From the IMG/VR virus record IMGVR_UViG_3300022413_000041, positions 1 to 23,497 of that record: a DNA stretch of 23,497 nt; one strand, given 5' to 3'. The position numbers and the translations under genes were made by a program. Below, in pieces: positions 1 to 22,117 of the stretch. The DNA is from a virus. The notes beneath the pieces were generated by a model. That model did no database searches. It saw only the letters and a program-made list of their open reading frames with translations, and was not told where the DNA came from. The first letter of the stretch is position 1; every line of letters starts with the position of its first letter.

Positions 1-792
1 GAGGTCGAGGGCGCACCGTCGGCGGACGACCTCAAGAAGGTCAGCGACGCTTTGGCGGCCGAACGGACTGCCCACTCCGAAACCGCCAACAAGCTCAAGC
101 CATTCGATACGATCGGCAAGACTCCGGACGAGATCAAGGCGGCGATGGTGGAGCTGGAGGAAGCCAAGACGAAGCTCGAGGCTGGCGGCGGTGAGAAGTT
201 CGACCAGGCCAAGTACGACGAGTTGGTCGACCGCAAGGTTGCTCTACAGATCGAGCCCCTGAACCGGCAGATCGAGGCCCTGACCACTGAACGAGACGCC
301 GCCAAGACAGAGGCTACTAATACCAAGACACAGCTCACCCGGCGCGATCTCGGCACCGAGCTGAATGCCGCGGCGACTGCCGAGAAGATGCCAGCTGAAG
401 CGATCCCGTTCTTCGTCAACCAGGCTCTAGATCAGTTCGAGAAGTCGGAGGCGGACGGCCGTTTCTTGACAGTGCGCAAAGACGGCTCCGACACCCTGCC
501 TGGACTTACGCCGGCGCAGATGGTCGCCGAGGCTAAGAAGACGATGCCGTTCCTCTGGCCGGACACGACGGGCGCCGGAATCAAGCCGGGCGAGCCCGGC
601 GGGCCCGATACGACCAACAATCCCTGGATGCCTGGCGCAGCTTGGAACAAGAGCGAGCAGTCTCGTATCCACAACGAAAAGGGTCCGGACGAGGCCAAGC
701 GATTGTCTCAAGCTGCTGGTGCTGGGGACAATCCTTACATCGTTCGCCACCCGAAAGACGTCGAGGCGCAAAAGGGCGGCCGCGCTGCCTGA
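1..792 (+). CDS. Probable capsid scaffold protein, 5' end missing
   Basis: The frame is open from the first base, so the true start lies outside the window and 263 residues are visible. The protein is highly charged and looks helical: Glu/Lys/Ala-rich stretches, including a heptad-like segment around visible residues 45-115, suggest a coiled coil. The C-terminal part is Gly/Pro/Asn-rich and probably flexible. Scaffold proteins typically look like this and are encoded directly before the major capsid gene, as here. They guide procapsid assembly and are later removed or cleaved. No motif was recognised, so the function rests on position and composition. A head-associated minor structural protein is the main alternative. 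A TTG at 52 is not a convincing start because the frame continues upstream of it. Confidence 0.6.
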   Translation, partial: EVEGAPSADDLKKVSDALAAERTAHSETANKLKPFDTIGKTPDEIKAAMVELEEAKTKLEAGGGEKFDQAKYDELVDRKVALQIEPLNRQIEALTTERDAAKTEATNTKTQLTRRDLGTELNAAATAEKMPAEAIPFFVNQALDQFEKSEADGRFLTVRKDGSDTLPGLTPAQMVAEAKKTMPFLWPDTTGAGIKPGEPGGPDTTNNPWMPGAAWNKSEQSRIHNEKGPDEAKRLSQAAGAGDNPYIVRHPKDVEAQKGGRAA

Positions 793-794
793 AG

Positions 795-822
795 TTGATT
801 TCCGCACTGCTTTGTGTATTTA
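795..822 (+). promoter_or_regulatory. Weak candidate promoter upstream of the capsid gene
   Basis: TTGATT at 795-800 and TATTTA at 817-822 are separated by 16 bases in a locally AT-rich patch just after the scaffold stop codon. The match to sigma70 boxes is mediocre, especially at -10. If used, it would start transcription near 830 and place the twin stem-loops at 850-919 in the 5' leader of the capsid mRNA. Confidence 0.2.
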
Positions 823-849
823 ACGAGGTGATGCCGACTTGATGTGGCC

Positions 850-870
850 GCGGAGGGGTGATCCCTCCGC
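850..870 (+). promoter_or_regulatory. Stem-loop 1 of a twin pair in the capsid leader
   Basis: Bases 850-857 pair perfectly with 863-870, giving an 8-bp G+C-rich stem that closes the loop GTGAT (858-862). No U-tract follows, so it is not a standard terminator. The 11-mer GGGGTGATCCC at 855-865 recurs exactly at 903-913 in stem-loop 2. It could be an RNA-binding site, an mRNA stabiliser or a DNA operator. Confidence 0.5.
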
Positions 871-893
871 CGCTACTGACCCGGCAGTAGGAG

Positions 894-919
894 GTCTCCA
901 AAGGGGTGATCCCGGAGGC
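894..919 (+). promoter_or_regulatory. Stem-loop 2 of a twin pair in the capsid leader
   Basis: Bases 894-899 pair with 914-919 (one G-U pair) and 903-905 pair with 911-913. This leaves an AAA bulge at 900-902 and the loop GTGAT at 906-910. The apical part GGGGTGATCCC is identical to that of stem-loop 1, 48 bases upstream. Confidence 0.4.
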
Positions 920-994
920 TTCTTGGCATGGCGCACCGCCGGCCGCGCAGAAACAGCAATCGGGCTGACTGCAACGCCATAGCGGAGATGCCCC

Positions 995-2023
995 ATGGCG
1001 GATACCCAAGTAGTCGACGTCGTCACACCGGAAATATTCACTCCTTACGCCCAGCAGATCACCGAGGAGCGTGCCAACCTGGTCACCACTGGTGTGATCA
1101 CGGTCGACCCGTTGTTGAGTGAGTTCCTGGCCGGCGGCGGTATCACGTTCAACGTGCCGAGCTGGCGCGATCTGTCGAACGTTGCTGAGAATGTCGCATC
1201 CGATAATCCGGCCACACTGGCAACCCCGCAGAAGACTCAGGCGGATAGCGAGATCGCCGTTCGGCTTTCCCGCAACCAATCCTGGTCGACCATGGACTTG
1301 GCGCAGGCGCTCGCCGGTTCCGATCCCATGGCATCGATCGGCAACCGTGTGGGTTACTACTGGTCACGTCGTTTGCAGGCCGTTGTCATCGCCTCCATGA
1401 ACGGCATCTTCGCCGATAATGACGCTGCGCCTGGTGGAACCGAGCACGTCCAAGGTGACCTGACCACTGACATCTCCGGTGCCTCTTTCATCGCTGGCGT
1501 CACCAACTTCAACAGCGCTGGGTTCATCGACGCTCTTACGACCATGAATGAGGCCGAGGAAGACTTGGGGGCCATGTTCGTGCACCCGGTCGTCTACGGC
1601 ACGATGAGGAAGAACAATCTCATCGATTTCGTGCCGGATGCGGTCAACCCGAACGCGGCCGCCGTGCCGACGTTTTTGGGGCGCAGGGTCATTCAAGACA
1701 AAGGGCTGCCGAACGCTTCCGACGTCTATGAGACCTGGATGCTTGGCGGCGGCGCGGTTCGTTGGGGCGTCGGTACGCCGCGGCGCGCAACAGCCGTCCG
1801 GCGAGAGGAAGATGCCGGCAACGGCGCCGGGCAGGAGATCTTGCACAACCGGATCGAATGGATCGTGCACCCGGCTGGTCATGCCTACGTTGGCACGGCT
1901 GCGTCTGGCGGACCGGACAACACCGCGACAACCGACAATCTGGCCGACGCGGCTTCTTGGATCCGGCGCTTCCCCGAGCGGGAGCAGATCAAGATCGCCC
2001 GCTTGGTGACCCGCGAGGCTTAG
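995..2023 (+). CDS. Major capsid protein
   Basis: This 342-residue protein forms the icosahedral head lattice. The N-terminal half has the pattern of one phage coat-protein group: a segment on the theme FTPYAQQITEE near residue 16, then VDPLLSEFLAGGG and ITFNVPSWRDL around residues 37-60. The family is probably Gp13-like, with an HK97-type fold expected; I recall this pattern and did not search it. Residues 180-260 include a conserved-looking stretch in which a capsid sample is compared with a wall or position (VHPVVYGTMRKNN). Its length is normal for a coat protein. The ATG at 995 has GGAG 7 bases upstream. It follows the scaffold gene and precedes a probable decoration protein, which fits its role. 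The flanking hairpins (850-919 and 2032-2059) may adjust its high expression. Confidence 0.85.
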   Translation: MADTQVVDVVTPEIFTPYAQQITEERANLVTTGVITVDPLLSEFLAGGGITFNVPSWRDLSNVAENVASDNPATLATPQKTQADSEIAVRLSRNQSWSTMDLAQALAGSDPMASIGNRVGYYWSRRLQAVVIASMNGIFADNDAAPGGTEHVQGDLTTDISGASFIAGVTNFNSAGFIDALTTMNEAEEDLGAMFVHPVVYGTMRKNNLIDFVPDAVNPNAAAVPTFLGRRVIQDKGLPNASDVYETWMLGGGAVRWGVGTPRRATAVRREEDAGNGAGQEILHNRIEWIVHPAGHAYVGTAASGGPDNTATTDNLADAASWIRRFPEREQIKIARLVTREA

Positions 2024-2031
2024 CCCATAGC

Positions 2032-2059
2032 GTGGGGAGGGGCACCTGCCTCTCCCCGC
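2032..2059 (+). promoter_or_regulatory. Strong intercistronic hairpin after the capsid gene
   Basis: Bases 2032-2043 can pair with 2048-2059 in a 12-bp stem with two G-U pairs and a four-base loop ACCT. It starts 9 bases after the capsid stop codon. No T-run follows and the next ribosome binding site (AAGGAG) begins soon after, so full termination is unlikely. A 3' mRNA-stabilising or partially terminating element is more plausible, giving more capsid than downstream product. Confidence 0.5.
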
Positions 2060-2077
2060 CAGACAAGGAGTTTCGTT

Positions 2078-2617
2078 ATGCCACATGGGCTGCCCTACTC
2101 TCTCTCTCGTCAGATTCAGCCGCAAGGCGGGCTCGAGCACGGAGCGCAGAAGAAGGTCAAACTGACCTTCAAAGACCTAGCGATTGCGCTAACTGACGAA
2201 GCCGGCGTCGTCGCTTATGGCGGGCTGAAGATCTACGACTTCGATCCTGGCCTGATCACATTCCACGGTGCTGTCGGCACGCTGACCATCACCAAGTCTT
2301 CCGCTGGTGTCGATGATGACGCCGCAGGCGACCTCGCGGTTGGGACGGTCGTGGCGAGCAACAATGCGACGCTCGCGACCACCGAGCAGGATCTGATTCC
2401 AACCGGAGCCTTCACCTTGGTTGCCGGGACGGACACGGTTGCCATTCAGAGCACGGCAACCGAGATCGGCGCTGTCTTCGACGGTACCAGCACCGCGATC
2501 GATGTTTTCTTGAACTTCCTGGTCGACGATGTCGACCATGATGTCACCACCACGCCAGCCAACATCATCGTGAACGGCTCTCTCACGCTGGTGTTCACCA
2601 ACGTTGGCGACAACTAG
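2078..2617 (+). CDS. Probable head decoration or head fiber-type protein
   Basis: The product has 179 residues, rich in Thr, Val, Ala and Asp with few Cys or aromatic residues. That composition suits an all-beta virion surface protein. Its N-terminus (Ser/Gln-rich, then a KKVKLTFKDLAIALTD segment) leads into repeated beta-strand-like stretches and ends with VNGSLTLVFTNVGDN. It starts at an ATG with an excellent AAGGAG at 2065-2070. Genes placed directly after the major capsid gene commonly encode decoration proteins that bind and stabilise the expanded capsid. I recognise no specific family, so decoration protein is inferred from position and composition. Confidence 0.5.
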   Translation: MPHGLPYSLSRQIQPQGGLEHGAQKKVKLTFKDLAIALTDEAGVVAYGGLKIYDFDPGLITFHGAVGTLTITKSSAGVDDDAAGDLAVGTVVASNNATLATTEQDLIPTGAFTLVAGTDTVAIQSTATEIGAVFDGTSTAIDVFLNFLVDDVDHDVTTTPANIIVNGSLTLVFTNVGDN

Positions 2618-2629
2618 GAGCGACGGATA

Positions 2630-3214
2630 ATGGACACACTTATCGAGACGCTTAGGCAACTCGACCCAGCGAACAACGCTCACTGGACGCAGAACGGCCT
2701 CCCGCGCCTCGACGTCCTATCCGCTTCGATCGGCAGCGACGTCTCCCGCAACGATGTCGCTGCCGCCGCTCCAAACTTTCGGCGGGACAACCTCGAGCTT
2801 CCTCCGCCCCCGGCACCAGAACCCGAAGCACCAACCCACCCTGACATGGCTGAGGATGTTGCGAAAAACCGAGCGTTGATTGAGCAACAGCTCGCCGGCC
2901 TGCGCGTGCAGATCGAAAATTGCCGGAGCGACATTGAGCGCATCAAACACCGCCAGTCCGAGTTCAGAGACGAAGAGATCAGACTCGCAACGCTGCTCAA
3001 GGAGAAGTACCCGGAGGTATCTCCCGGCGAGCGCATGAAAAGGCACGTACAGCGCCAGCATGAAATCCGTGTGGCCGCGGCGCAAGAGGCACGGAGATCA
3101 GGACAAAAGGTCGTCGCGCCATCGCCGCTTGATCAAGCTCTCGCAGCTCGGCCTCGCCCGTATCAACAGGTGGTCATGCAGCCGGCGCCAAAGCCGGTCA
3201 CGTCCAGGACTTAA
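2630..3214 (+). CDS. Phage virion-associated coiled-coil protein
   Basis: The 194-residue product begins with a segment containing LDPANNAHWTQNGLPRLDVL. I recall this pattern, a Trp followed by a short Asp- and Pro-containing loop, at the N-terminus of many uncharacterised phage head-region proteins. Residues 45-75 are Pro-rich linker. Residues 75-135 are a charged helical segment likely to form a coiled coil (IEQQLAGLRVQIENCRSDIE). The C-terminus is basic and Pro/Gln-rich. A GGAG overlaps the preceding stop at 2617-2620. No function is known to me; it may be a minor head or head-tail protein. Confidence 0.55.
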   Translation: MDTLIETLRQLDPANNAHWTQNGLPRLDVLSASIGSDVSRNDVAAAAPNFRRDNLELPPPPAPEPEAPTHPDMAEDVAKNRALIEQQLAGLRVQIENCRSDIERIKHRQSEFRDEEIRLATLLKEKYPEVSPGERMKRHVQRQHEIRVAAAQEARRSGQKVVAPSPLDQALAARPRPYQQVVMQPAPKPVTSRT

Positions 3215-3217
3215 GAG

Positions 3218-4087
3218 ATGCCCCTGGTTCCAAGTCAGCGAACCGGGCGATCGACGGCGCTCTTTCTCAACGCGCAGAGAAAGCGGCAACAGCGACTGTT
3301 CGCCCAAGGTCAGGATGTTCCGGTTAATCCCACCCGAATCGGTTTGTTGCCGGGCGATATCGATCCCGGACAGGAGATCAATCGATCGCTTTTGTTCTGC
3401 TGCGGCAGTCATCCGGCCGGCAGCCCATTGCTTGGCGTCGATTTGATCAAACGGCGACCAGCGACACTGCTTGGATCAGCAGATCTCAGCGCTGATCATC
3501 CCGATATCGGATGGAAATCGTTTAACTCGCCAGCCGCTGCCGATCTGGTCTTCTTTCGCTCGGCTGCCTTGCGCGGGATTGGGGAATCTTTTTCGATTGG
3601 GGCCTATATCGCGGTCGATTCTGCCGAATCTAACGCGATGATCTGTTGCGTGCCCTGGTTCGACCCTGGGTGGAGTTCACCTTTTGCTTCGTTGAGCTGG
3701 GGCCGCGAGGGAACGACCTCGGCCGGGGCCGAGGCGCGATGGAGTGACGGCAACACGCTGATTACGGTTGCCAATACCAGTGGCAGCGATATGTGGCCGG
3801 ATGACACCAATGGGCATTGGCTGGTCTGGACTCGGATGGGCACGACGCACCGCTTTTATTTCGACGGGGTCAAGCAGGGTCTCGACGTTACGGGTGATGC
3901 TTCGACGCCCGTGTTCAATTCCGATGGCTCGCGTGATCTGTTTCTCTTCGGTCGGAACGATCAGAACCCGGGCCATAATCTAAACGGCAAGATCTACGCG
4001 ATCAGCATCTGGCAACGCGAGCTGTCCGCGGCCGAGGTCTCTGCGCTCGCCGCCAATTCGACAGTTCAGTTCATCGGGGGCAGCTGA
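3218..4087 (+). CDS. LamG/concanavalin A-like lectin domain protein in the head module
   Basis: The product has 289 residues. About 55 N-terminal residues, basic and probably flexible or virion-anchoring, precede a LamG-like jelly-roll domain (about 58-285). Visible signatures are HPAGSPLLGVDL at 65, the segment HWLVWTRMGTTHRFYFDGV, and the ending IYAISIWQRELSAAEVSAL, the typical last strands of LamG domains. Such domains bind glycans or other surface ligands. It sits between head genes and the connector genes, so it may be a head-displayed adhesin. A clear paralogue lies at 21320-22117. The ATG lies 3 bases after the previous stop with only a weak AAGAG in front, so the start is less certain; the stop overlaps the next ATG (TGATG). 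Confidence 0.75.
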   Translation: MPLVPSQRTGRSTALFLNAQRKRQQRLFAQGQDVPVNPTRIGLLPGDIDPGQEINRSLLFCCGSHPAGSPLLGVDLIKRRPATLLGSADLSADHPDIGWKSFNSPAAADLVFFRSAALRGIGESFSIGAYIAVDSAESNAMICCVPWFDPGWSSPFASLSWGREGTTSAGAEARWSDGNTLITVANTSGSDMWPDDTNGHWLVWTRMGTTHRFYFDGVKQGLDVTGDASTPVFNSDGSRDLFLFGRNDQNPGHNLNGKIYAISIWQRELSAAEVSALAANSTVQFIGGS

Positions 4088-4641
4088 TGGCGTTCGTGGT
4101 TGAAGACGGGACGGTCGTCGCCAGCGCCAACAGCCTGGTGTCGATCGCCTTTGCCGACAGCTTCTTTGCCGATCGGCGCGAAGCGCGATGGGTTGGCACC
4201 GTTGCCGCCAAGGAGGCGGCGCTCGTGCGAGCGACTGATTGGTTCGAGCAGGCGCACGGTTTGAACATCAACGGATCCCGAACCATTGTGACGCAACTGC
4301 TCTCGTTCCCTCGGGACTACCTCTATGTGCATGGATTCCTGATCGATAACGACGTGGTTCCAGACACGATCCAGAAGGCGGTTTGTCTCTATGCGCTCCG
4401 TGCCTTGGCTCGGGCCGACATAGTGCCCGACCCAGATCTGCCGGGTGGCAGGGGCGCTGTCACGCACGATGAGATCGAGGTCGGACCAATCACACTGATC
4501 ACCAAGTTTGCGTCGCCCAAGGACACGCCAGGCGATGATACCATTCCGAAGATGCCCGAGGTCGATCTGCTCCTGGCACCGTTCCTCAGCTCGATCGCGG
4601 ATTCGAGTGGGGTCAGCTTCGGCGATGCGGGCCGTGGCTGA
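4087..4641 (+). CDS. Head-tail connector (DnaT-like/gp6-like adaptor)
   Basis: The product has 184 residues. The opening MAFVVEDGTVVASANSLVSI and a following helix with RATDWFEQAHG (about 55-65) match the pattern of phage proteins annotated as putative DnaT-like ssDNA-binding proteins. In many phages these occupy the place of the head-tail adaptor that docks on the portal ring. The central helices (VPDTIQKAVCLYALRALARAD) and the C-terminal segment VDLLLAPFLSS fit that group. Translation is probably coupled to the lectin gene by the TGATG overlap. The family assignment is from memory of the pattern; the connector role is also supported by position before a terminator-like gene. Confidence 0.65.
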   Translation: MAFVVEDGTVVASANSLVSIAFADSFFADRREARWVGTVAAKEAALVRATDWFEQAHGLNINGSRTIVTQLLSFPRDYLYVHGFLIDNDVVPDTIQKAVCLYALRALARADIVPDPDLPGGRGAVTHDEIEVGPITLITKFASPKDTPGDDTIPKMPEVDLLLAPFLSSIADSSGVSFGDAGRG

Positions 4642-5033
4642 TGGCGACCACAACAGAACGCATCCAGGACGGCCTGAAGACGCTCCAAGCTAAGCTGGAA
4701 AATCCTGACGATCAGATCGGTCAGTCGATCATACTTCGCACCATCTCGACGGTCTTGCGCGACGCCTCGCAGCCTTGGCTGGGAACGGTGAACGTCCCCG
4801 TTGATCTCGAGCTGGTCGGATTGGTGGAGCTCTACACGGTCCGCGAGATCAACGGCGAGACGATCCAGCAGGGTGACGTCCAGTGCATCCTGCTGCGCGA
4901 AGGTCTCGGCACGACCGTGCCCACGACGGTCAACCAGGTCACATGGGAGGGCACGACCTACGCCGTGAACCACGTCACGCCAACGTTCGTCGGTGATACT
5001 GCCGAAGTCTACGAGCTCAGGCTTCGGGCATGA
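4641..5033 (+). CDS. Probable head-tail joining/stopper protein
   Basis: The product has 130 residues. An N-terminal helix with TTERIQDGLKTLQAKLENPDD is followed by a mostly beta region ending in TWEGTTYAVNHVTPTFVGDT and YELRLRA. A small beta protein between the adaptor and the tail terminator is the usual place of the stopper/head-closure ring in siphoviruses. No family motif is certain. Its ATG overlaps the upstream stop (TGATG) and its stop overlaps the next ATG (ATGA), so the three neck genes are likely translated in a coupled way. Confidence 0.5.
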   Translation: MATTTERIQDGLKTLQAKLENPDDQIGQSIILRTISTVLRDASQPWLGTVNVPVDLELVGLVELYTVREINGETIQQGDVQCILLREGLGTTVPTTVNQVTWEGTTYAVNHVTPTFVGDTAEVYELRLRA

Positions 5034-5458
5034 GCGCTGATTACGAGACCCTGCACGGCGAGGTTCTGACCGCGTTCAAAGCGCAATGGACCACGCGACA
5101 GCCGACCTGGTCGCAAACGACCCGCGTGCAATGGCCCGATGGCGACCCGCCGGCGCATGGGCGCCAGCAATGGATCAGGCTGGCACTAACAGACGTCGAC
5201 GGCTTCGACTCTGCCATCGGGATAGCTGATGTAGTGATCGGCCTCTTCACGGTCGATCTGTTCACGCCGTTGCCCGAGCTTGCCACCAATCAGCACAACA
5301 TCATCAAGCTAGATCTGCGCAACGCGATGCGCGCGGTGCTGCCGGCGGCGCTGCGGCCCGTGCGGTTCTGGACGCGAGACTTCGGCCGCAACCCCGATGG
5401 GTTCAAGCATTCCCGAGCAGCGCTTGCCTTCCACTTCGATCTGCCGGATCCGAGTTGA
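5030..5458 (+). CDS. Tail terminator-like protein (DUF4128-type)
   Basis: The product has 142 residues with an alpha/beta layout: an N-terminal helix (DYETLHGEVLTAFKAQW), a strand with RVQWPDGD, then WIRLALTDVDG, a central beta segment ending DLFTPL, a helix IIKLDLRNAMRAVLP, and a C-terminal strand ALAFHFDLPDPS. This order resembles tail terminator/tail completion proteins that cap the tail tube and join it to the head. The place between the stopper and the HK97 gp10-like gene agrees. The DUF4128 link is recalled, not searched. Start and stop both overlap neighbours. Confidence 0.6.
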   Translation: MSADYETLHGEVLTAFKAQWTTRQPTWSQTTRVQWPDGDPPAHGRQQWIRLALTDVDGFDSAIGIADVVIGLFTVDLFTPLPELATNQHNIIKLDLRNAMRAVLPAALRPVRFWTRDFGRNPDGFKHSRAALAFHFDLPDPS

Positions 5459-5667
5459 TGATCTGGACGCCGATCAAGCGTTACCTCGATTACATCTTCG
5501 GAACTGATGTGCGCTCATTCCGCGAGGCGTGGCAAGACCGGGCTTGGGACATCGTGATCCCGTCGATTATCGCCAATGTGGTGGCGATCTCTTGCTTGAT
5601 CGGCCTTTGGTTTGTCTTCGCTATTGGCACCATCCACGTCCTCGATTGGCTTGGCTGGATGCCCTAG
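5458..5667 (+). CDS. Small single-helix membrane protein in the neck gene cluster
   Basis: The product has 69 residues. A basic, amphipathic N-terminus (residues 1-31) precedes one clear transmembrane helix at about 33-57 (PSIIANVVAISCLIGLWFVF is its core), then a short Trp-rich tail. An ATG at 5458 overlaps the previous stop as TGATG; a TTG at 5455 in the same frame is a less likely start. Membrane proteins are unexpected among neck genes, which normally encode soluble virion parts. It could act in lysis control, superinfection exclusion or host takeover, but nothing here decides between these. Confidence 0.65.
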   Translation: MIWTPIKRYLDYIFGTDVRSFREAWQDRAWDIVIPSIIANVVAISCLIGLWFVFAIGTIHVLDWLGWMP

Positions 5668-5670
5668 GCG

Positions 5671-6057
5671 ATGGCGCTGACCATCACCGTCAACGGCATC
5701 GAGCAAGATCTCGAGTTTTTTAGCCGCGAATACGGCAAGTTCATCGTCGAGGTCGGCAGCACCCTACTTCAGGTGATCCAGGTCGGGACGCCGGTAGACA
5801 CCGGGCATGCACGCAACAACTGGATCCCTGAAATTGGCTCGATCACGGGGCGCGTGATCGGGTCTCGGGAAAGCCCTGGATCACCCCAAGGCGACGGTGC
5901 GATTCAGCGGTGGCAACCCGGTGCAGGCGACATCACTATTCACAACTCGGTTGAGTACATTGTCTATCTGGACCAAGGTAGCAGCGCTCAAGCTCCCCAG
6001 GGAATCGTGGACCCGGCGGTCGCCGCGGTTGAAGGAAGGTTTCGCGGGGGACCATAA
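5671..6057 (+). CDS. HK97 gp10-like neck/tail completion protein
   Basis: The product has 128 residues. The diagnostic pattern is TPVDTGHARNNW at about residues 40-51, followed by a beta region with ITIHNSVEYIVYLDQGSSAQAP and a C-terminal helix. In HK97 gp10-like minor tail proteins the same order appears as TPVDTG, N-x-x-xY and an EYG- or DQGSS-like turn. These proteins take part in joining head and tail. The start lies 3 bases after the preceding stop, with no strong ribosome binding site visible, so coupling with the membrane protein gene is likely. The stop overlaps the tape measure start (TAATG). Confidence 0.75.
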   Translation: MALTITVNGIEQDLEFFSREYGKFIVEVGSTLLQVIQVGTPVDTGHARNNWIPEIGSITGRVIGSRESPGSPQGDGAIQRWQPGAGDITIHNSVEYIVYLDQGSSAQAPQGIVDPAVAAVEGRFRGGP

Positions 6058-9000
6058 TGCCGACCATCAAGGTAACGCTCGACACGAGTGATTTTGACGC
6101 CGGCATTACCCGCGTAAAAAGTCAGCTTGGAACGCTCGGCACATCTGCCCAACAGGCTGGCCAGAACCTCAAGATCGACCAAAAGGGACTTAGGGATACC
6201 ACTGCCAATCTGAACGCGACGACCGCAGCTGCCGGCGGTGCTGCCGCAGGGTTGGGGAAAATCAAGACGGCAGTTGCTGGCCTTGGCATAGCGACAGCGT
6301 TCAGGAGCGCAATAACACTTCTCGGCGGCTTCGATGAGAAGATCCGTTTGGTCGGGCAGGTTGCCGGTGCGACTGGGCGGGAGTTCGATGCTCTGCGGCA
6401 GAAAGCTACCAGCCTCGGCGAAACCACGAGGTTCACCGGGACGCAAGCAGCCGAGGGCCTTCAGGCGCTTGCTCAAGCTGGCCTTTCGGCCCGAGAAGCC
6501 ATCGCTGCCATCGACGCCACTCTGAATCTGGCGATCGCTGGGCAGCTGGAACTGGCTCGCTCTACGCAGATCACAGTTTCGACAATGGCACAGTTCAGCA
6601 TCGAGGCTGAGAACGCTGGCCGAGTGGTGGACGTCCTCACTAAGGCTTCGCAAAGCACGCTCGCCAATGTCGACCAGCTTGCTGTCGGATTGCGCCAATC
6701 CGGTGCCGTGGCATCTGACTTCGGCATTTCGCTCGAAACGACGGTTGCAGCTCTTGGTCTTCTCGTTAGCAGCGGTCTGCGAGCCGAGCAGGCAGGTACC
6801 GGCCTCCGCAACGTGCTTCTCCGCCTTGAGAGTGGCACGACAGAGGTCACAAAGGCTCTGGAGGCTGTCGGTCTATCTGTCGATGACGTTGAAGTATCGA
6901 CCCGTGGCTTGATCCCTGTGCTTGAAACTCTCGGAGATGCCAATCTCTCGAACGCCCAAAAGGTAAAGCTCTTCGGGGTTGAGGGCGTTACTGCCTTCAA
7001 TGCTCTGGTGAAGCAAATCCCCAGCATCCAGGGCCTTTCGGATGCACTTGATGAAGCCGGAGGATCAGCAGCCGCAACAGCGGCCGCTCTGGACGAGTCG
7101 CTACTCGGTGCCGTGTTTAGAGCTACATCTGCATTCCAGGGGTTTATCCAGGCGATCGGCGATGCCGGCCTGACAGCTGTTCTGAAGTCAGTGATCACCG
7201 CCGCTGCCGGAACGTTCACCGATCTAACGGCTGCGGTTAACCAGAGTGCCGATGCCGTCCGCGCGCTAATCCGCCTATTCACTGGTGATTTCTCGGTGAT
7301 CACGAATGCGGTCACGGCGGTCATCAACAAATTTATTTCGTGGCGTGATGTGATCGTGGACCTCGGGGCAAGGCTCAAAGCATCGATTTTTGGGGCGTCA
7401 ACCGAGGTCGACAAGATAACCAGCAGCACGGCGAAGCTCGAAGGGGCCACAATCTCCGCGAAGCGCCGAGCGGACGAGCTCTTCGGCGGTGTTGGAGATG
7501 ATTCGCTTGCTGGCGCGGCCGGCGTCGACACACTGACCTCTGCAATCGGAGGTATAGAAACGGCTACGGCCAAAGCCACGGTTAGCACGGGATCACTCAC
7601 GACCGCCATCAAGGGAATGTCGTCAAGCTCCAAAGAGGGCGCCACGGTCGCTGCAATCGGCATGGCCGATCTCGAAGCGAAAGTCTCAGCTGCAACGGCG
7701 TCCACCGAGGCTCTGGCCACGAAGATGCGCGAGGATTTGGTGGCCGCTACCACGACTGGCGTGACCAACATCACCGCACTGTTCGGCCAAGCATTCACAG
7801 ATATTGGCGCAGGCGGCCAACAGCTCTTCGAAAATCTCGATCGACTGGCCCAAGGGCTCGGGGTGCAACTCGGGGCCACGTTCGCTGGCATCAGTGAAAC
7901 GATCGGCAACGCCCTCGGCCTGGCGGCGAACGAGGTCAACGGGACACTCTCACTGCTCGGCAAATCTCTTGGCGCCTTCGGCGTCACGCTCCAAGACGTA
8001 TTTGGCACTCAAGCAGCAGCTGCAATCCAATTCTTTGGCACGCTGACGAAGAACGAAATCGATGCCATCGTTGCCGCTGGATCAAAGCTGCTCGATTTTT
8101 TTGGGTTCCTGTTCCCCTCGGCGACCGCCACGGCGACGGCGGCCCACACGGCGCACTCCACATCCGTGGTCGCCAGTACCACCAGCACCACTGGTATCCT
8201 GACGACGCTTTGGGGAGGGTTCCAGACCTTCTTCGGCGGGATCGTCTCCGGGATCACGACGCTCTGGACCAACTGGACCACGACATCCACGGCGGCGTCC
8301 ACCGCTGGCGTGGCAGCCAAGGCCGGCTTGTGGCAGCAGTTCCTCGGGTTCTTCCAGGGGATAGGATCTTCGCTACTGTCGATCTGGAACAGCTGGACCA
8401 CGACATCCACTGCGACGACCGCCAGCGGTACCGCGGCGAAGGCTGGGCTGTGGGCCCAGTTCCAAGGGTTCTTCCTCGGTGTGGTCGGGAACCTGCAGGC
8501 AGTCTGGTCTGGCCTTACAGCTTTCCTCACGGCCAACTTCGGTGGGTCGACCGGCGCGATGACAGCGCTGTTCGGTGCGTTCGCAGCATTCTTCGGCAGT
8601 CAAACCGGCAGCATGTCTGGTGTCTTCTCCAGTTTTTCCGGCGCTATGGTCAGTGCGTTCAACAGCGCCATCGGCGCCATGAGGTCAGCGTTCTCCGCTT
8701 TCGGTTCGTTCTTCAATGGTCTCGTGGGTGGGCTCGCATCCAGCTTCGGCAGCTTCATCAGCGGTGCCATTTCCGGATTGAATGGGCTGGTCGGGGCGGC
8801 GAGCAGTGCGGCGAGCGGTATCAGCAGCTCGATCGGCGGCGCGGTCTCCGGCGCAATTGGTGCAGCCCAAGCGGCAGCCAGCACTATCGGTGGCCTTCTC
8901 GGTTTCCAGGGAGGCGGCGTGATTGGTACGGGCCCGGGTGGGACCGGACCGACACGGCAGTTCGACCCGCAAAACGCCACTGTTGCCTTCGGCGGACAGC

Positions 9001-9686
9001 AGTTCGGTGTGGCATCACAAACCTTCGGCGGACAGGTTGGCGGCGTCCTCGGCAGGTTCGTCGGTGGCAACTTTGGATCAGCCTTTGGCGCCGGCGTTGG
9101 AGGTGTTGTTGGTGGGCTCTTTGGTCCTGCCGGTATAGCCGCTGGCGCTGCACTCGGGGCAGTTATTGGGCGCATCGCCGGTGGGGCTCTCGGTCGCTTT
9201 ACCGGCACTGTGGCTGGATCTGGCGGCCCTTCCTTCGTTGGCAGCCCCGGGGGCGGCGGTCTCGGTCAAGAGGGGTTAGGCTCTGGTATCTCTGGCGGCA
9301 GCTTCGGCGGCGAACGGACATCCAGCCCGGGCGGCATTGGCGGCTTCCAGACCGGTGGGTCGATCGTTCGGTCGCGCTCGTTCTTCCGAGTACTCGATAG
9401 CGCCAACAAGCCGGGTGTCGGGCAGGTTGGTGAGGCGGCAGCACCCGAGGCGATCCTGCCACTTGAGCGCAACTCGCGCGGTCGGCTCGGTGTCATTGCA
9501 AAGGTCGATGCCAGCGGCGTTGGTGGCAAGGGCGGTCCGACGACCTCGAACACCTTCATCATCGATGCACGCGGCGCCGACCAGGATGCCATCCAGCGGT
9601 TGGAGCGACTGATCAGAGAGGTCAACGGTTCGGTCGAGTACAGGGCAGCGGCGACGTTTGAACAGATTGTCCGGAGGGCTTCATGA
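6057..9686 (+). CDS. Tail tape measure protein
   Basis: The product has 1209 residues. The TP901-type tape measure core lies at about 70-330 and shows the expected run EFDALRQKATSLGETTRFTG, then AAEGLQALAQAGLSAREAI, and later SGLRAEQAGTGLRNVL. A Ser/Thr/Ala-rich helical middle contains two exact-length 40-residue tandem units (from about 718) and part of a third. A Gly/Ala-rich hydrophobic stretch (about 830-1110) follows. The C-terminus has the common ending GEAAAPEAILPLERNSRGR. Tape measures set tail length and are ejected into the host envelope; at about 0.15 nm per residue the tail would be near 180 nm. No peptidase motif was seen. Start and stop both overlap neighbours. Confidence 0.95.
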   Translation: MPTIKVTLDTSDFDAGITRVKSQLGTLGTSAQQAGQNLKIDQKGLRDTTANLNATTAAAGGAAAGLGKIKTAVAGLGIATAFRSAITLLGGFDEKIRLVGQVAGATGREFDALRQKATSLGETTRFTGTQAAEGLQALAQAGLSAREAIAAIDATLNLAIAGQLELARSTQITVSTMAQFSIEAENAGRVVDVLTKASQSTLANVDQLAVGLRQSGAVASDFGISLETTVAALGLLVSSGLRAEQAGTGLRNVLLRLESGTTEVTKALEAVGLSVDDVEVSTRGLIPVLETLGDANLSNAQKVKLFGVEGVTAFNALVKQIPSIQGLSDALDEAGGSAAATAAALDESLLGAVFRATSAFQGFIQAIGDAGLTAVLKSVITAAAGTFTDLTAAVNQSADAVRALIRLFTGDFSVITNAVTAVINKFISWRDVIVDLGARLKASIFGASTEVDKITSSTAKLEGATISAKRRADELFGGVGDDSLAGAAGVDTLTSAIGGIETATAKATVSTGSLTTAIKGMSSSSKEGATVAAIGMADLEAKVSAATASTEALATKMREDLVAATTTGVTNITALFGQAFTDIGAGGQQLFENLDRLAQGLGVQLGATFAGISETIGNALGLAANEVNGTLSLLGKSLGAFGVTLQDVFGTQAAAAIQFFGTLTKNEIDAIVAAGSKLLDFFGFLFPSATATATAAHTAHSTSVVASTTSTTGILTTLWGGFQTFFGGIVSGITTLWTNWTTTSTAASTAGVAAKAGLWQQFLGFFQGIGSSLLSIWNSWTTTSTATTASGTAAKAGLWAQFQGFFLGVVGNLQAVWSGLTAFLTANFGGSTGAMTALFGAFAAFFGSQTGSMSGVFSSFSGAMVSAFNSAIGAMRSAFSAFGSFFNGLVGGLASSFGSFISGAISGLNGLVGAASSAASGISSSIGGAVSGAIGAAQAAASTIGGLLGFQGGGVIGTGPGGTGPTRQFDPQNATVAFGGQQFGVASQTFGGQVGGVLGRFVGGNFGSAFGAGVGGVVGGLFGPAGIAAGAALGAVIGRIAGGALGRFTGTVAGSGGPSFVGSPGGGGLGQEGLGSGISGGSFGGERTSSPGGIGGFQTGGSIVRSRSFFRVLDSANKPGVGQVGEAAAPEAILPLERNSRGRLGVIAKVDASGVGGKGGPTTSNTFIIDARGADQDAIQRLERLIREVNGSVEYRAAATFEQIVRRAS
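8208..8516 (+). repeat. Tandem 120-bp repeats inside the tape measure gene
   Basis: Two complete in-frame units (8208-8327 and 8328-8447) and about 70 bases of a third begin with LW and end with AAKAG. Each carries WTTTSTA near its middle. The DNA TGGACCACGACATCCAC recurs with a 120-base period. Confidence 0.8.
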
Positions 9687-15940: not shown

Positions 15941-15988
15941 CAGGCTAGCATCCGCGCACCCAGGGCATCTTCGACGGAGCGCGTGGCT

Positions 15989-17593
15989 ATGGTCGTGGAA
16001 GTCCAGAAGATCGATTCAAGCTTTACCGGGGCGCGGATTGCGCTGGAAGCCAGTCTCGGTGTGCTTCCTGGGACGCCCCTCTGGTACATCATGGAACCCA
16101 ATAGCTACACCGACACCGGCGGATCTGTCGGGGGTGTGGCGAGACGACCGATCACCACCAAGCGCTTGCGGAAGAAAGGCACGACTACGATCGTGACTGC
16201 CGGCGCGGGCATGAATGTCGATCTCACGCCGACCATGATGACGCCCTTCTGGCCGGGCATGCTGCTCGCCGCCGGGCGGAAGCATGCGCAGCACGGGGGC
16301 CGGTTCGTCATTCCTAACCCGGTAACTGTGGTCGGTACCGGTTTTGACATCGGTGAGGACGCCGCGGCCGCCGGCTATGCTGCTGATCAGCTGGTGTGGG
16401 CCGATGGCTTTACCGACCAGGCCAACAACGGCCTGAAATTGGTCACAGGTACTGCAACCAACGTCGTGCTTTTCGCTGGCTCTGTCGTCGAAGCCTCGCC
16501 GCCGGCAGACGCCTCGATCAGAGTGGTCGGCTACGAGTTCCCATCGGCCGATGTCGATGTGGTCAACGCTGGCGGTTCCCTCCCGACCCTCGTCTCTGCC
16601 GCGGACGACTTCACCAACCTCAACCTGCAGCGCGGCGACTGGATCTGGATCGGCGGAACGGCGGCGAGCAGCAAGTTCGTCAATGCCGAAAACAACGGCT
16701 TGGCACGGGTTCGCTCCGCAACGACAGGGGTACTGACGCTGGATAAGGCGCCCGGCGGCGCAGATCTGGCAACTGACTTCGTGGCGGAAACCGGTACCGG
16801 CCTGTCGATCCGGATCTTCACTGGTGACGTCTACGGAACAGTGGCATCGGATGACGCCAACTTCGCCGATCAAACCTTCACAATCGAGCGGCTGCTGGGA
16901 AAGCCGAATCCGGTCGCTGCTCCGACAATCACCCAAGGCGAGGCCGTGCGCGGCTGCCAATGGGCCAACATGGCAATCAACGTGCCTCTTCCCGGCGATG
17001 ATTCGAAGGTAACCTTCGACGTGACCTGGCTGGGCACTGACAGCGAACAGCATCTCGGGACCGGGCCAGATCCGTTGCTCTCCGACACAGGCAACGTGGT
17101 AGCGATCCCATCCCGGGACGTGTTCAATCCTGCCGGCGACGTCATCCGGCTCAAGCTCAACATCGTACCGCCCGATACCGATGGAAACGGTGCAGCTGAT
17201 CCGCTCTTTGCGCGGATCAGTCAGCTCACGCTCTCTCTCTCCAACGGCAGTGTGGCCAACAACTCGGTCGGCAGCGACACTGCCTTTGCCATCACGGCGA
17301 ACCTATTCACGGTCGACGCAAGCCTCACTGCCTACTTCTCCGACATCGCCGCCCAACAAGCGGTTCGGAACAACGAAGACACCGAGCTCGAGCTCTGCCT
17401 CGCCAAGGCGGTCGGCGGCACCCATCGCGAGGCGGTGTTATTCGATCTCCCGCTCGGCGCACTCACTGGCGGTCTCGCCAACGTCGAGCAGGATGCGCCG
17501 GTTAGCGTGCCGCTGACTTTCGCCGATGGTGAGGACGAGGGTCTTGGCCGAAGCTTCACAGTGATGGACTTCGGGTATCTGCCGCTTGTCTAG
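15989..17593 (+). CDS. Major tail tube protein
   Basis: The product has 534 residues. The ATG at 15989 is preferred because GGAG at 15976-15979 is 9 bases upstream of it, while an in-frame GTG at 15983 would leave only 3. The N-terminal part (RIALEASLGVLPGTPLWYIM, then RRPITTKRLRKKGTTT) and the late beta region (LTAYFSDIAAQQAVRNNEDT) match the pattern of a phage tail tube family. Between them sit two similar beta modules (about 115-182 and 200-276), each with an N-N-G-L motif. The protein polymerises in stacked rings around the tape measure. It is longer than most tube proteins. The gene lies downstream of the tail tip genes, an unusual place. Confidence 0.75.
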   Translation: MVVEVQKIDSSFTGARIALEASLGVLPGTPLWYIMEPNSYTDTGGSVGGVARRPITTKRLRKKGTTTIVTAGAGMNVDLTPTMMTPFWPGMLLAAGRKHAQHGGRFVIPNPVTVVGTGFDIGEDAAAAGYAADQLVWADGFTDQANNGLKLVTGTATNVVLFAGSVVEASPPADASIRVVGYEFPSADVDVVNAGGSLPTLVSAADDFTNLNLQRGDWIWIGGTAASSKFVNAENNGLARVRSATTGVLTLDKAPGGADLATDFVAETGTGLSIRIFTGDVYGTVASDDANFADQTFTIERLLGKPNPVAAPTITQGEAVRGCQWANMAINVPLPGDDSKVTFDVTWLGTDSEQHLGTGPDPLLSDTGNVVAIPSRDVFNPAGDVIRLKLNIVPPDTDGNGAADPLFARISQLTLSLSNGSVANNSVGSDTAFAITANLFTVDASLTAYFSDIAAQQAVRNNEDTELELCLAKAVGGTHREAVLFDLPLGALTGGLANVEQDAPVSVPLTFADGEDEGLGRSFTVMDFGYLPLV

Positions 17594-17612
17594 CCTTGCT
17601 CTAAGAGGGCGC

Positions 17613-17658
17613 GGAGGATATTCCGGGAACGTAGTGTAGAAATTCCTGGAGATCTTCC
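17613..17658 (+). promoter_or_regulatory. Possible RNA stem covering the chaperone ribosome binding site
   Basis: Bases 17613-17628 can pair with 17643-17658: 14 of 16 positions are Watson-Crick or G-U pairs, with mismatches at 17620/17651 and 17624/17647 and a 14-base loop. The GGAG at 17648-17651, the only plausible Shine-Dalgarno of the next gene, lies inside the stem, which ends directly before the GTG start. Confidence 0.4.
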
Positions 17659-18138
17659 GTGCCCAAGCAACCCGCAACGCAACGACCGATCGTCCCTGAG
17701 ATACGAGTCCACGGTGCCTTGGCGAAGTGGAGAATGGCGCCAGAGGCGACGATCGACTGCGATGGCTTCAAGGCCGTAGTCCGCTTCTTCGGCGCTTCGA
17801 ATCAGCTGGTGCAAGCCGAGGTCGCTAAGCGGCAGAACAACACGGCGCTGTCTGCAGGCGTCGAAGTCGCCACAACCTTGAGTGATGAAGAGTTCAAGCA
17901 GGACGTTGAGAGCTGGGTGCGCATCGCTCTTGTGTCATGGGACATGATGAGTGATCCGATAGTGGACGATGACGGCAATGTCATCCAAGAGCCGATCCCG
18001 GTACCGATAGAGATGGCTTCCGACATCTTCTGCAACCACGGAATCGGCGGCAAAGAGCTTTACTCCGCCATGTTCCAAGCGTCTCGCGAGCGCCAACGGT
18101 TCCTGATCACCGAAGAGATGGCCAAGGAAAAAAACTAG
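17659..18138 (+). CDS. Tail assembly chaperone, short product (lambda gpG analogue)
   Basis: The product has 159 residues and begins at GTG 17659, with GGAG 7 bases upstream. The sequence shows FKAVVRFFGASNQLVQAEVAK, a strongly acidic middle with DEEFKQDVESW, and a C-terminal helix with ASRERQRFLITEEMAKEKN. This fits a small protein that binds tube subunits and the tape measure during tail assembly. It lies right after the tube gene, the normal relative order. Its last codons overlap a slippery heptamer A AAA AAC (18129-18135), immediately before TAG. A fraction of ribosomes should shift -1 there to make the longer product. Confidence 0.75.
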   Translation: MPKQPATQRPIVPEIRVHGALAKWRMAPEATIDCDGFKAVVRFFGASNQLVQAEVAKRQNNTALSAGVEVATTLSDEEFKQDVESWVRIALVSWDMMSDPIVDDDGNVIQEPIPVPIEMASDIFCNHGIGGKELYSAMFQASRERQRFLITEEMAKEKN

Positions 18139-18488
18139 CGGAGGTCGCCTGGTTCACGTTCTCCGGCGCCGGACATGTCGAAGCTATCATCCTGCAAAGC
18201 CGCTCTATGGGGATCGAGCCCCCCCGCGAACTGACCGAAAAGGTAAGGATGATCGAGCCGTGGATGAGGTTCTACATTCAGGCTTACGTGGATCTATCGA
18301 CTGAGGCCAACGATAGGGGCTATATTCCTTGGCGAGCGATCAATGACTATGCCCAACGTTACGGTTTTGTGGACTGGGGCTTCGAATGGTTCAATCGGTG
18401 CATTCGCGCGATCGAAGAACACGTCCTCGCCAAACGCGCGGCAGCATCTGGAGGGCAGGCTGATGTTCAACAGCCGGAGAGCGCATAA
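17659..18488 (+). CDS. Tail assembly chaperone, frameshift fusion product (lambda gpGT analogue)
   Basis: Reading 17659-18135 in the first frame and then 18135-18488 in the -1 frame gives 276 residues: 159 from the short product plus 117. The second frame is open from the slip site (next residues LAEVAWFTFSGAG) to TAA at 18486-18488. It includes the helical segment MIEPWMRFYIQAYVDLSTEA and a Gln-rich tail. An internal ATG at 18207 has no Shine-Dalgarno, which argues against independent translation. In lambda the G part binds tube protein and the T part contacts the tape measure. The family link rests on position, frame arrangement and slip site rather than strong sequence similarity. Confidence 0.75.
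18129..18135 (+). promoter_or_regulatory. Programmed -1 ribosomal frameshift site
   Basis: The heptamer A AAA AAC matches X XXY YYZ exactly, with AAA and AAC as zero-frame codons and TAG directly after. A possible stimulatory stem is short: 18139-18143 (CGGAG) with 18161-18165 (CTCCG), beginning 3 bases downstream; a 12-base palindrome at 18162-18173 is an alternative. Confidence 0.8.
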
Positions 18489-19438: not shown

Positions 19439-19870
19439 ATGCCCGGGGTCACAGACGTCACGATCGACACAGTTGCCCGAACGGTCTGGGGTGAAGCCAG
19501 ATCCGAAGGCATCAATGGTATGCGGGCGGTTGCTCATGTCATTTGCAACCGAGCCGGGGATAACAGATGGCCATCCGACCACGCTGACGTCTGCACGCAA
19601 CCATCGCAATTCTCTTGCTGGAACCAGGACGACCCGAACCGAGAACGCTTGGTTGGGGTCGAATGGACGGATGTCAATTTTCAGCACGCCTATGCTCTAA
19701 GCTGTACTGCCATCATCCCTGTGAGCCACGGCTCGCACGGCAATGGCGATCCTACCCACGGCGCGAACCACTACTGCACCGCGCAGCTTCTCGAAGATTC
19801 ACCGCCGGCATGGGCCGATCTAAAGAAGATCACGGCCCGGATCGGCAACCATGTGTTCTTCCGGTTATGA
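19439..19870 (+). CDS. Endolysin, SleB-type cell wall hydrolase
   Basis: The product has 143 residues. Almost the whole protein matches the SleB/Hydrolase_2 pattern: TVWGEARSEGINGMRAVAHV at 15-34, with Glu19 as the likely catalytic acid of the lytic transglycosylase type; VCTQPSQFSCWN at 51-62; and THGANHYC at 106-113. It should cut peptidoglycan to release progeny. It lacks a signal peptide, so it probably needs the holin encoded directly after it (ATGA overlap at 19867-19870). The short length fits a single catalytic domain without a binding domain. SleB-type endolysins are frequent in phages of alphaproteobacteria. Confidence 0.9.
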   Translation: MPGVTDVTIDTVARTVWGEARSEGINGMRAVAHVICNRAGDNRWPSDHADVCTQPSQFSCWNQDDPNRERLVGVEWTDVNFQHAYALSCTAIIPVSHGSHGNGDPTHGANHYCTAQLLEDSPPAWADLKKITARIGNHVFFRL

Positions 19871-20112
19871 ACCGCTTCGGCACGGCCGCCAACAAGGCAT
19901 GGATCGGAGCCGTGGTCCCTGCCGCTTTGGTCCTGCTCAAGTATGGCATGGCGCTGCATGCCGGTACCGAAACGCCGAGTGATGCCGAGATCGGCGCAGC
20001 TGTCTCCACCATCATCGAAGGTCTGTTAGTCGCCGTGGCCGCCGGCGGCGTTGGTTTTGGTGCGGTCTACTCCATCCCCAATCGGCCACCAAAGGAGGGC
20101 GCCGACCCATGA
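19867..20112 (+). CDS. Holin, two transmembrane helices
   Basis: The product has 81 residues, starting at the ATG that overlaps the endolysin stop. Two hydrophobic helices span about 12-30 (WIGAVVPAALVLLKYGMAL) and 49-68 (IIEGLLVAVAAGGVGFGAVY). A polar loop with an acidic SDAEI joins them, and the C-terminus has YSIPNRPPKEG, an ending I recall from phage holins. Class II holins have this size and topology, and the endolysin is adjacent. It would form the membrane lesion that gives the endolysin access to the wall. An upstream in-frame start near 19615 would lie inside the endolysin gene and is rejected. Confidence 0.75.
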   Translation: MNRFGTAANKAWIGAVVPAALVLLKYGMALHAGTETPSDAEIGAAVSTIIEGLLVAVAAGGVGFGAVYSIPNRPPKEGADP

Positions 20113-20928: not shown

Positions 20929-21320
20929 TGGCAGATCTTCGAGGCGATCAGCTCCCAGTCGCGACCCTTCCGCTCACGACTGAACCTACATTCTGCTGGC
21001 AGGGAGGTGAGATGCGGCGCCTGCCGGCTGACAGCATGATCGGGACAATTGCCAATCCGATCGCGATCTCCGGCTCGCGTAATCTGGCGGACACAGACAA
21101 CGGAAAGGTCTTGCGCTGCACGAGCAGTGTGACGCTGACTGTCATCACCGGCTTGACCGACGGCTTTGCTTGCTTGGTGCTCAATCGTGCCGGCGCGGCT
21201 GTTACGATCGCCGCAGGCGCTGGCTTGACGCTCGATGGCGACACGTCGATCTCGGACGACCACTTTGGCACCATTGTCAAGGACGCGGCGGCCACCGCCC
21301 TCAGCCGGGCTTCCGGTTAA
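20928..21320 (+). CDS. Small virion protein of the adhesion cluster
   Basis: The product has 130 residues from the ATG at 20928; a TTG one codon earlier is less likely. About 45 extended N-terminal residues (with TLPLTTEPTFCWQGGEMRRL) are followed by a beta-rich part containing NLADTDNGKVLRCTSSVTLT and AGAAVTIAAGAGLTLDGDTS. That second part resembles a surface-stabilising segment often present in tail fiber shafts. The stop overlaps the next ATG (TAATG). It may be an attachment adaptor for the lectin encoded next. No family name is certain. Confidence 0.55.
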   Translation: MADLRGDQLPVATLPLTTEPTFCWQGGEMRRLPADSMIGTIANPIAISGSRNLADTDNGKVLRCTSSVTLTVITGLTDGFACLVLNRAGAAVTIAAGAGLTLDGDTSISDDHFGTIVKDAAATALSRASG

Positions 21321-22117
21321 TGTCTCGGATCGTCCGAATCGCCGGAGGTGCTCTCGGTAGTCCAAAGGGCGATCTCAAGGCCGGGGCTGCCATCAACAAT
21401 AACCTTGTGTTCTGCCTGGGCGCACATCCTGCCGGCTCACCTTTGCTTGGTATTGATCTGGTCTCTCGGGATGCGTTGACGCTCGGTGGCGGCGCGGCCA
21501 TGACGGCGGACCATCCGGACGAAAGCTGGAAATCGCTCGATCTGGCCACTGCTGATGATTACGCCAGGTGGGATCTGTCCTCGGCCTTCGAAACGGCGAT
21601 GGATGGCGCCGAGGTCTACAGCTTCGCCGCTTATTGCGAGGTGTTCGGCGCCTCTGAGAGCTTTGCGGTCTTCTTTGCGATCCCGTACAATGACGGCTCG
21701 CACTCCTCTCCATTCCACACCCTGACCATGTCGAGGCAGTCTACAAGCCAGCAGGTTGTCATTCACTTCTGGAATGGCAGCGGCGGGCTTAGAAATTTCG
21801 ACAACGACGATGGGGGAGCACAGGGGGATATGTGGTTGCCGGATGGGAGCGCGCATTGGCTCGTGTTCACCCGCAATGGCCAATCGCACAAGATCTATGC
21901 TGATGGCGTCGAGCAGCACTCTGGTTCCGCGCAAGATGAGCCTATCGTCTTCAACAGCTTCGGCAGCAGCAAGCTGGTTATAGGCACGAGGAACGACTCC
22001 GACCTGGGCGAGAGTTTGGTTGGCGAGATTCACACGCTGGCGATCTGGGATAGGGAGCTGTCAGCAGCTGAAGTCAGCTCGCTCAACTCGGACCCCACAC
22101 AAATGTTTGTGACGTAG
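21320..22117 (+). CDS. LamG/concanavalin A-like lectin domain protein, tail adhesin module
   Basis: The product has 265 residues starting at the ATG that overlaps the previous stop; an in-frame start at 21170 would lie inside the upstream gene. Its single domain matches the protein at 3218-4087 across its length. Both have HPAGSPLLG-I/V-DL (here residue 36), DHPD..WKS, MW..D...HWLV.TR with a following Y.DGV.Q, and a final IW.RELSAAEVS.L. The long basic N-terminus of the head copy is replaced by about 25 different residues, so the two are probably attached to different partners. LamG domains bind glycans; a receptor-binding role fits the neighbouring spike and fiber genes. Confidence 0.75.
   Translation: MSRIVRIAGGALGSPKGDLKAGAAINNNLVFCLGAHPAGSPLLGIDLVSRDALTLGGGAAMTADHPDESWKSLDLATADDYARWDLSSAFETAMDGAEVYSFAAYCEVFGASESFAVFFAIPYNDGSHSSPFHTLTMSRQSTSQQVVIHFWNGSGGLRNFDNDDGGAQGDMWLPDGSAHWLVFTRNGQSHKIYADGVEQHSGSAQDEPIVFNSFGSSKLVIGTRNDSDLGESLVGEIHTLAIWDRELSAAEVSSLNSDPTQMFVT

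Follow-up and report, generated by a model that had tools for sequence, protein, structure and literature searches.

The chaperone locus and its predicted products

The window, by which we mean the whole stretch of 23,497 nucleotides analysed here (IMG/VR record IMGVR_UViG_3300022413_000041), encodes on its + strand a major tail tube protein (15983-17593) that is recognised by phrog_290 (E 4.6e-38) and Pfam Phage_tube_2 (43 bits, cutoff 27), and that shares 37% identity over 99% with the tube proteins of Stenotrophomonas, Bordetella and Pseudomonas phages. Immediately 3′ of this gene lie two overlapping frames on the same strand, the second of which is -1 relative to the first and has no start of its own. 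The first, zero frame (17659-18138) opens at a GTG codon with the Shine-Dalgarno sequence GGAGA (17648-17652) 6 nt ahead of it, closes at a TAG stop and encodes a G-like tail assembly chaperone of 159 aa. Taken alone, the G half had no family match in PHROG, Pfam or protein searches, and a profile of other G proteins failed to recognise it. For this reason, G is named by its position and junction rather than by clear homology. The score against phrog_8233 rises from 20.7 to 32.3 bits once the last 50 residues of G are fused to T, and the match of the G-T fusion reaches back to residue 110 of G. A single-sequence structure model of G is helical, of low confidence (pLDDT 47) and too poor for a structure search.

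The -1 frame would add a T domain of 117 aa after the slip (18135-18488, + strand) for a full G-T fusion of 276 aa. This domain matches the phrog_3817 tail chaperonin (E 5.7e-11) and phrog_8233 (E 4.8e-4), and scores 26.6 bits against Pfam Phage_TAC_18, slightly below the cutoff of 27. Aligned with the T domains of other, isolate phages, it reaches an hhalign probability of 98.4 (E 6e-15). In the relatives, a conserved T block (L-x-E/A-V-L) starts at the first residue after the slip, ahead of any start codon. A GGAGG just 3′ of the slip (18140-18144) was considered as a start signal for T and ruled out, because there is no in-frame start codon near it and the codons of the conserved L-A-E-V in the T alignment explain it.

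The slip site and its conservation

Direct reading of the sequence confirms the original prediction that the first frame ends AAA AAC TAG: the last codons of G are GAA AAA AAC TAG, with AAA at 18130-18132, AAC at 18133-18135 and TAG at 18136-18138. The slippery heptamer A AAA AAC (18129-18135, + strand) has the X XXY YYZ phase correct for a -1 tandem slip, and the zero-frame TAG abuts its 3′ side. The -1 frame, predicted to be free of stops until 18488, proved to be open from 17973 up to its TAA stop (18486-18488). The first ATG, GTG or TTG of this frame is the ATG at 18207-18209, which is its sole early ATG, lies inside the T domain 24 codons past the junction and has no purine-rich Shine-Dalgarno sequence in front of it, in keeping with the prediction that the second frame lacks an independent start. 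The window is 60% G+C and has a single AAAAAAC on each of its strands. When the codons of the G ORF were shuffled, 0.8% of shuffles had an in-frame AAAAAAC somewhere, and in 0.006% it formed the last two codons. Given this rarity and these frequencies, the placement of A AAA AAC at the end of G exceeds chance.

A DNA search gave no match of the window to isolate phages, and no relatives came from scanning viral contigs with single G, T, tube or hub proteins. Aligned all together, the T domains proved too diverse for a scan; a narrower alignment succeeded. Scanning IMG/VR with four T domains, with patterns that lay within T and excluded the heptamer, recovered 80 loci, all of which carry a heptamer at the homologous place (AAAAAAC in 52, GGGAAAC in 27 and GGGAAAT in 1). 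In isolate phages, the T relatives sit directly after a first chaperone frame, and an in-phase heptamer (AAAAAAC, GGGAAAC or GGGAAAA) is found at or near the end of that frame in 11 of 11 phages, whose hosts are Rhodobacter, Paracoccus, Vibrio, Pseudomonas, Xanthomonas, Stenotrophomonas and Bordetella. Two contigs reached through their capsid protein (G001 and G002) have the heptamer at the junction too. Altogether, the homologous junction heptamer is found in 93 related loci, comprising the 11 isolate phages and 82 IMG/VR contigs. The one exception among 94 relatives is a divergent contig, also found through its capsid protein (G003), that reads A AAA AGC TGA, where an Asn-to-Ser change breaks the heptamer and the stop is still adjacent. 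Either this contig uses a different mode of slipping and the heptamer is not absolutely required, or its sequence is in error. The G003 junction, which is also our locus L066, lies near 1501 on the reverse strand, and its T frame stays open despite the broken heptamer. Loss of the heptamer by synonymous change, which had been proposed as evidence against the frameshift, was sought in the relatives and found in none of the 93.

The same picture holds after redundancy is removed. In 71 loci that are less than 85% identical around the junction, the window included, the heptamer is AAAAAAC in 47, GGGAAAC in 22, GGGAAAT in 1 and GGGAAAA in 1. Elsewhere in the same G frames, away from the heptamer, lysine is encoded by AAA in 211 of 668 cases, asparagine by AAC in 371 of 491 and glycine by GGA in 43 of 548, indicating that the uniform AAA AAC or GGA AAC at the junction is not due to codon bias.

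These observations establish the site, its phase, the homology of the T domain and the conservation of both the site and the -1 frame. In our interpretation, 17659-18488 is a G/GT gene for tail assembly chaperones, belongs to a siphophage-like virus with a long tail and is expressed by programmed -1 ribosomal frameshifting, a reading to which we assign a probability of about 95%. The T-domain matches and the conserved junction support the original prediction of two tail chaperone frames joined by a -1 shift in a lambda-like G/GT arrangement. Most ribosomes would begin the G frame at GTG 17659, read AAA AAC in frame and terminate at TAG 18136, which would yield the 159-residue G. A minority would slip by -1 on A AAA AAC, with the tRNAs at AAA and AAC re-pairing with AAA AAA, and would resume at CTA to produce the 276-residue G-T fusion that ends at 18488. 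As in lambda, the G portion may coat the tape measure protein, with the T portion recruiting the tail tube protein, and it is these roles that would make the G:GT ratio matter. That ribosomes slip in the host itself, how often they do so and what the products do are inferred. A recoding device familiar from textbooks is confirmed for an uncultured virus.

Other routes to the T product, or to the apparent split, were weighed against frameshifting. G and T could be two genes, with T starting independently at ATG 18207 through re-initiation after the TAG. The presence of that ATG, with the G stop upstream, makes coupled re-initiation conceivable, and the records of several relatives do call T a separate gene from an internal codon. 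However, 18207 has no ribosome binding site, nothing upstream of it in the -1 frame could serve as ATG, GTG or TTG start, and a protein begun there would lose 24 T residues whose alignment with the relatives begins at the very first one. In many relatives the surroundings of the T block contain no start codon at all, and an independent start leaves the conserved heptamers unexplained, so we regard this reading as very improbable. The seven A's in a row at 18128-18134 could instead invite transcriptional slippage, giving mRNAs with one extra A, although such slippage generally requires longer runs. Moreover, about a third of the relatives have GGGAAAC, with just three A's, at the same place, most of the others have six A's, and the conserved feature is the ribosomal X XXY YYZ pattern. 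Homopolymers are also error-prone and the window is a metagenome contig, so a mistake made in sequencing or assembling the A run might have split one continuous gene, but the same split is found at the same codon in 93 other records, isolate phage genomes among them, and this conserved arrangement appears in practice to refute an error. We find transcriptional slippage and sequencing error each scarcely credible and reject both, given that GGGAAAC variants are conserved and that so many independent records show the arrangement.

Programmed frameshifting in a G/GT gene has several known counterparts. The lambda slip site is GGGAAAG, and its stop codon does not touch the heptamer. As in the lambda G/GT chaperones (Levin 1993; Xu 2004, 2013, 2014, as reviewed in PMC5009743), a -1 frameshift near the end of G would produce a minor G-T fusion and the gene follows the tail tube gene, whereas the tape measure gene, which normally follows the chaperones directly, lies upstream in the window. 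Acinetobacter phage Loki (gp12/gp13) and its relatives, which include Paracoccus phage KP162168, share with the window an AAAAAAC directly adjoining the stop, such that the device, the heptamer and even the stop contact are already published for related phages (PMC5313236). Because KP162168 is among the matches of the window T, the window T and the T of the Loki group belong to the same domain family; the window differs from these relatives in that its T is ~32% identical to that of KP162168 and in that they have the canonical gene order. The best match of the window T (30%, E 5e-7) is that of Rhodobacter phage RcSimone-Hastad (genes 78/79, MW677525), where G-T is annotated as a two-piece joined CDS and the stop likewise touches the heptamer. 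This phage differs in its heptamer (GGGAAAC), in a G half that is not recognisably similar and in its usual tube-G-GT-minor tail gene order. In annotating such genomes, T should be joined to G, not called from an internal codon.

Stimulators and the adjoining stop codon

The weak 5-bp stem originally predicted 3′ of the slip (18139-18165; CGGAG 18139-18143 with CTCCG 18161-18165) is present in the window, and the region downstream folds less well than shuffles (z +1.3 to +1.5). A pseudoknot scan of the same region was not significant, as 17% of shuffles were as good. The description of a weak stem, which stands for the window at z +1.5, does not hold family-wide: significant folding immediately 3′ of the slip is seen in about half of the relatives, and 32% are at or below 5% in the pseudoknot scan. 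Across the family, folding beats shuffles only in 50-nt segments starting 5 and 50 nt past the heptamer (mean z -1.8 and -2.3), with mean z of about -0.7 to +0.1 at other offsets. On the upstream side, the 8-mers most complementary to the 16S rRNA tail across the family are those that start 15 to 11 nt 5′ of the heptamer, and positions -12 to -9 mostly read GGAG, which agrees with the 9-14 nt spacing at which a Shine-Dalgarno sequence is known to stimulate -1 frameshifting (PMC5009743). The window has no such upstream stimulator (-3.6 kcal/mol versus a family median of -5.9). About 20 of the 71 loci are weaker than the window on either count, fold or Shine-Dalgarno energy.

Members of the family therefore share the kinds of stimulator used by E. 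coli dnaX, a Shine-Dalgarno sequence 9-14 nt ahead of the slip and a stem after it (PMC5009743), whereas the window has neither the upstream GGAG nor the downstream fold and does not qualify as a dnaX-like stimulated frameshift. The dnaX site also differs in its heptamer (A AAA AAG), its high rate and its protein. In E. coli, A_AAA_AAC shifts less readily than A_AAA_AAG (PMC5009743). Given that the heptamer is only moderately slippery and that the usual stimulators are missing, the slip rate in the window is likely to be low, perhaps a few percent. A low rate would suit tail assembly, as in lambda, where the mechanism is known and the G:GT ratio is ~30:1 (PMC5009743).

The stop codon abuts the heptamer in 60 of the 71 non-redundant loci and is one codon further on in 7. 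From the remaining CTN codons of these T genes, such a stop would be expected in 14.5% of cases; as the loci are related and so not independent, a formal probability for the difference should not be read at face value. In other phage collections, the mean distance from slip to stop is 26 nt (SEA-PHAGES annotations) or 36 nt (the Xu phage set) (PMC10885494). Together, this contact rate and these longer distances suggest a reading that would add to the G/GT explanation, not oppose it: the abutting stop may act as a functional slip-or-stop switch that makes the G:GT ratio depend on release factor, either by a pause that stimulates slipping or by competition that restrains it. We consider such a switch possible but rather unlikely, since selection for an exact G C-terminus or a compact overlap yields the same pattern, and the abutting stops are of mixed type (TAA 32, TGA 19, TAG 9) with no single weak context. 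The conserved contact may merely fix the end of G.

With regard to the two versions of the switch, a stop placed directly after the HIV-1 slip site lowered -1 frameshifting with bacterial ribosomes and in human cells, and more cognate release factor lowered it further (PMC4373837). These experiments favour competition over pausing and speak against the original suggestion that termination pausing may promote the slip. A more specific and still more doubtful proposal is that the heptamer-fused stop is, family-wide, a selected control element that sets G:GT through competition between release factor and slip, and that the lineage of the window uses the heptamer and stop alone, having lost the upstream Shine-Dalgarno sequence and the downstream fold still present in most relatives. 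We did not meet a family survey of stop contact and stimulators in the cited literature. With the stop found fused in most loci, and the stimulators usual in the family but missing in the window, the survey opens the role of the adjacent stop to testing.

Gene order around the chaperones

The G/GT gene of the window has the tube gene directly upstream but does not lie between the tube and tape measure genes, a placement that is usual and not strictly defining. Upstream of G/GT, the genes for head-tail adaptor (4087), head closure (4641), terminator (5030), tail completion (5671-6057) and tape measure (6057-9686) form a run interrupted by a single small ORF at 5455, and the tube-G-GT block (15983-18488) is downstream of distal tail, central fibre and other tip genes. 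This order is unusual, as nearly all relatives place tube and G/GT between the terminator and completion genes. The completion gene comes directly after T in 60 of the 63 relatives with enough sequence, and in annotated isolates the tape measure gene is next after it. Among capsid relatives that have both modules, the nearest (G001) keeps the usual order. Window positions 1-7284 recur with 100% identity in a contig assembled separately (L013), so the gap at the expected place of the block is not the flaw of one assembly; the downstream position of the block itself is seen in the window contig only.

Several neighbouring features were recorded in passing. Two similar laminin-G/lectin-like proteins that have the stretch HPAGSPLLG...DLxxR in common are encoded at 3218-4087, in the head region, and at about 21317-22117, near the end of the window, and appear to be paralogs 17 kb apart. 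Within the lectin-like ORF of the head region, ARAGORN calls a 93-nt tRNA-Arg at 3586-3678 that is probably a false positive. Shortly after the chaperones, 19439-20112 holds probable lysis genes, one for a cell wall hydrolase (Hydrolase_2, 67.7 bits) and one for a small membrane protein, perhaps a holin. In three Vibrio phages (L004, L006 and L010), a block of small genes on the reverse strand, including thyX or MazG-like genes, is inserted between the tube and chaperone genes.
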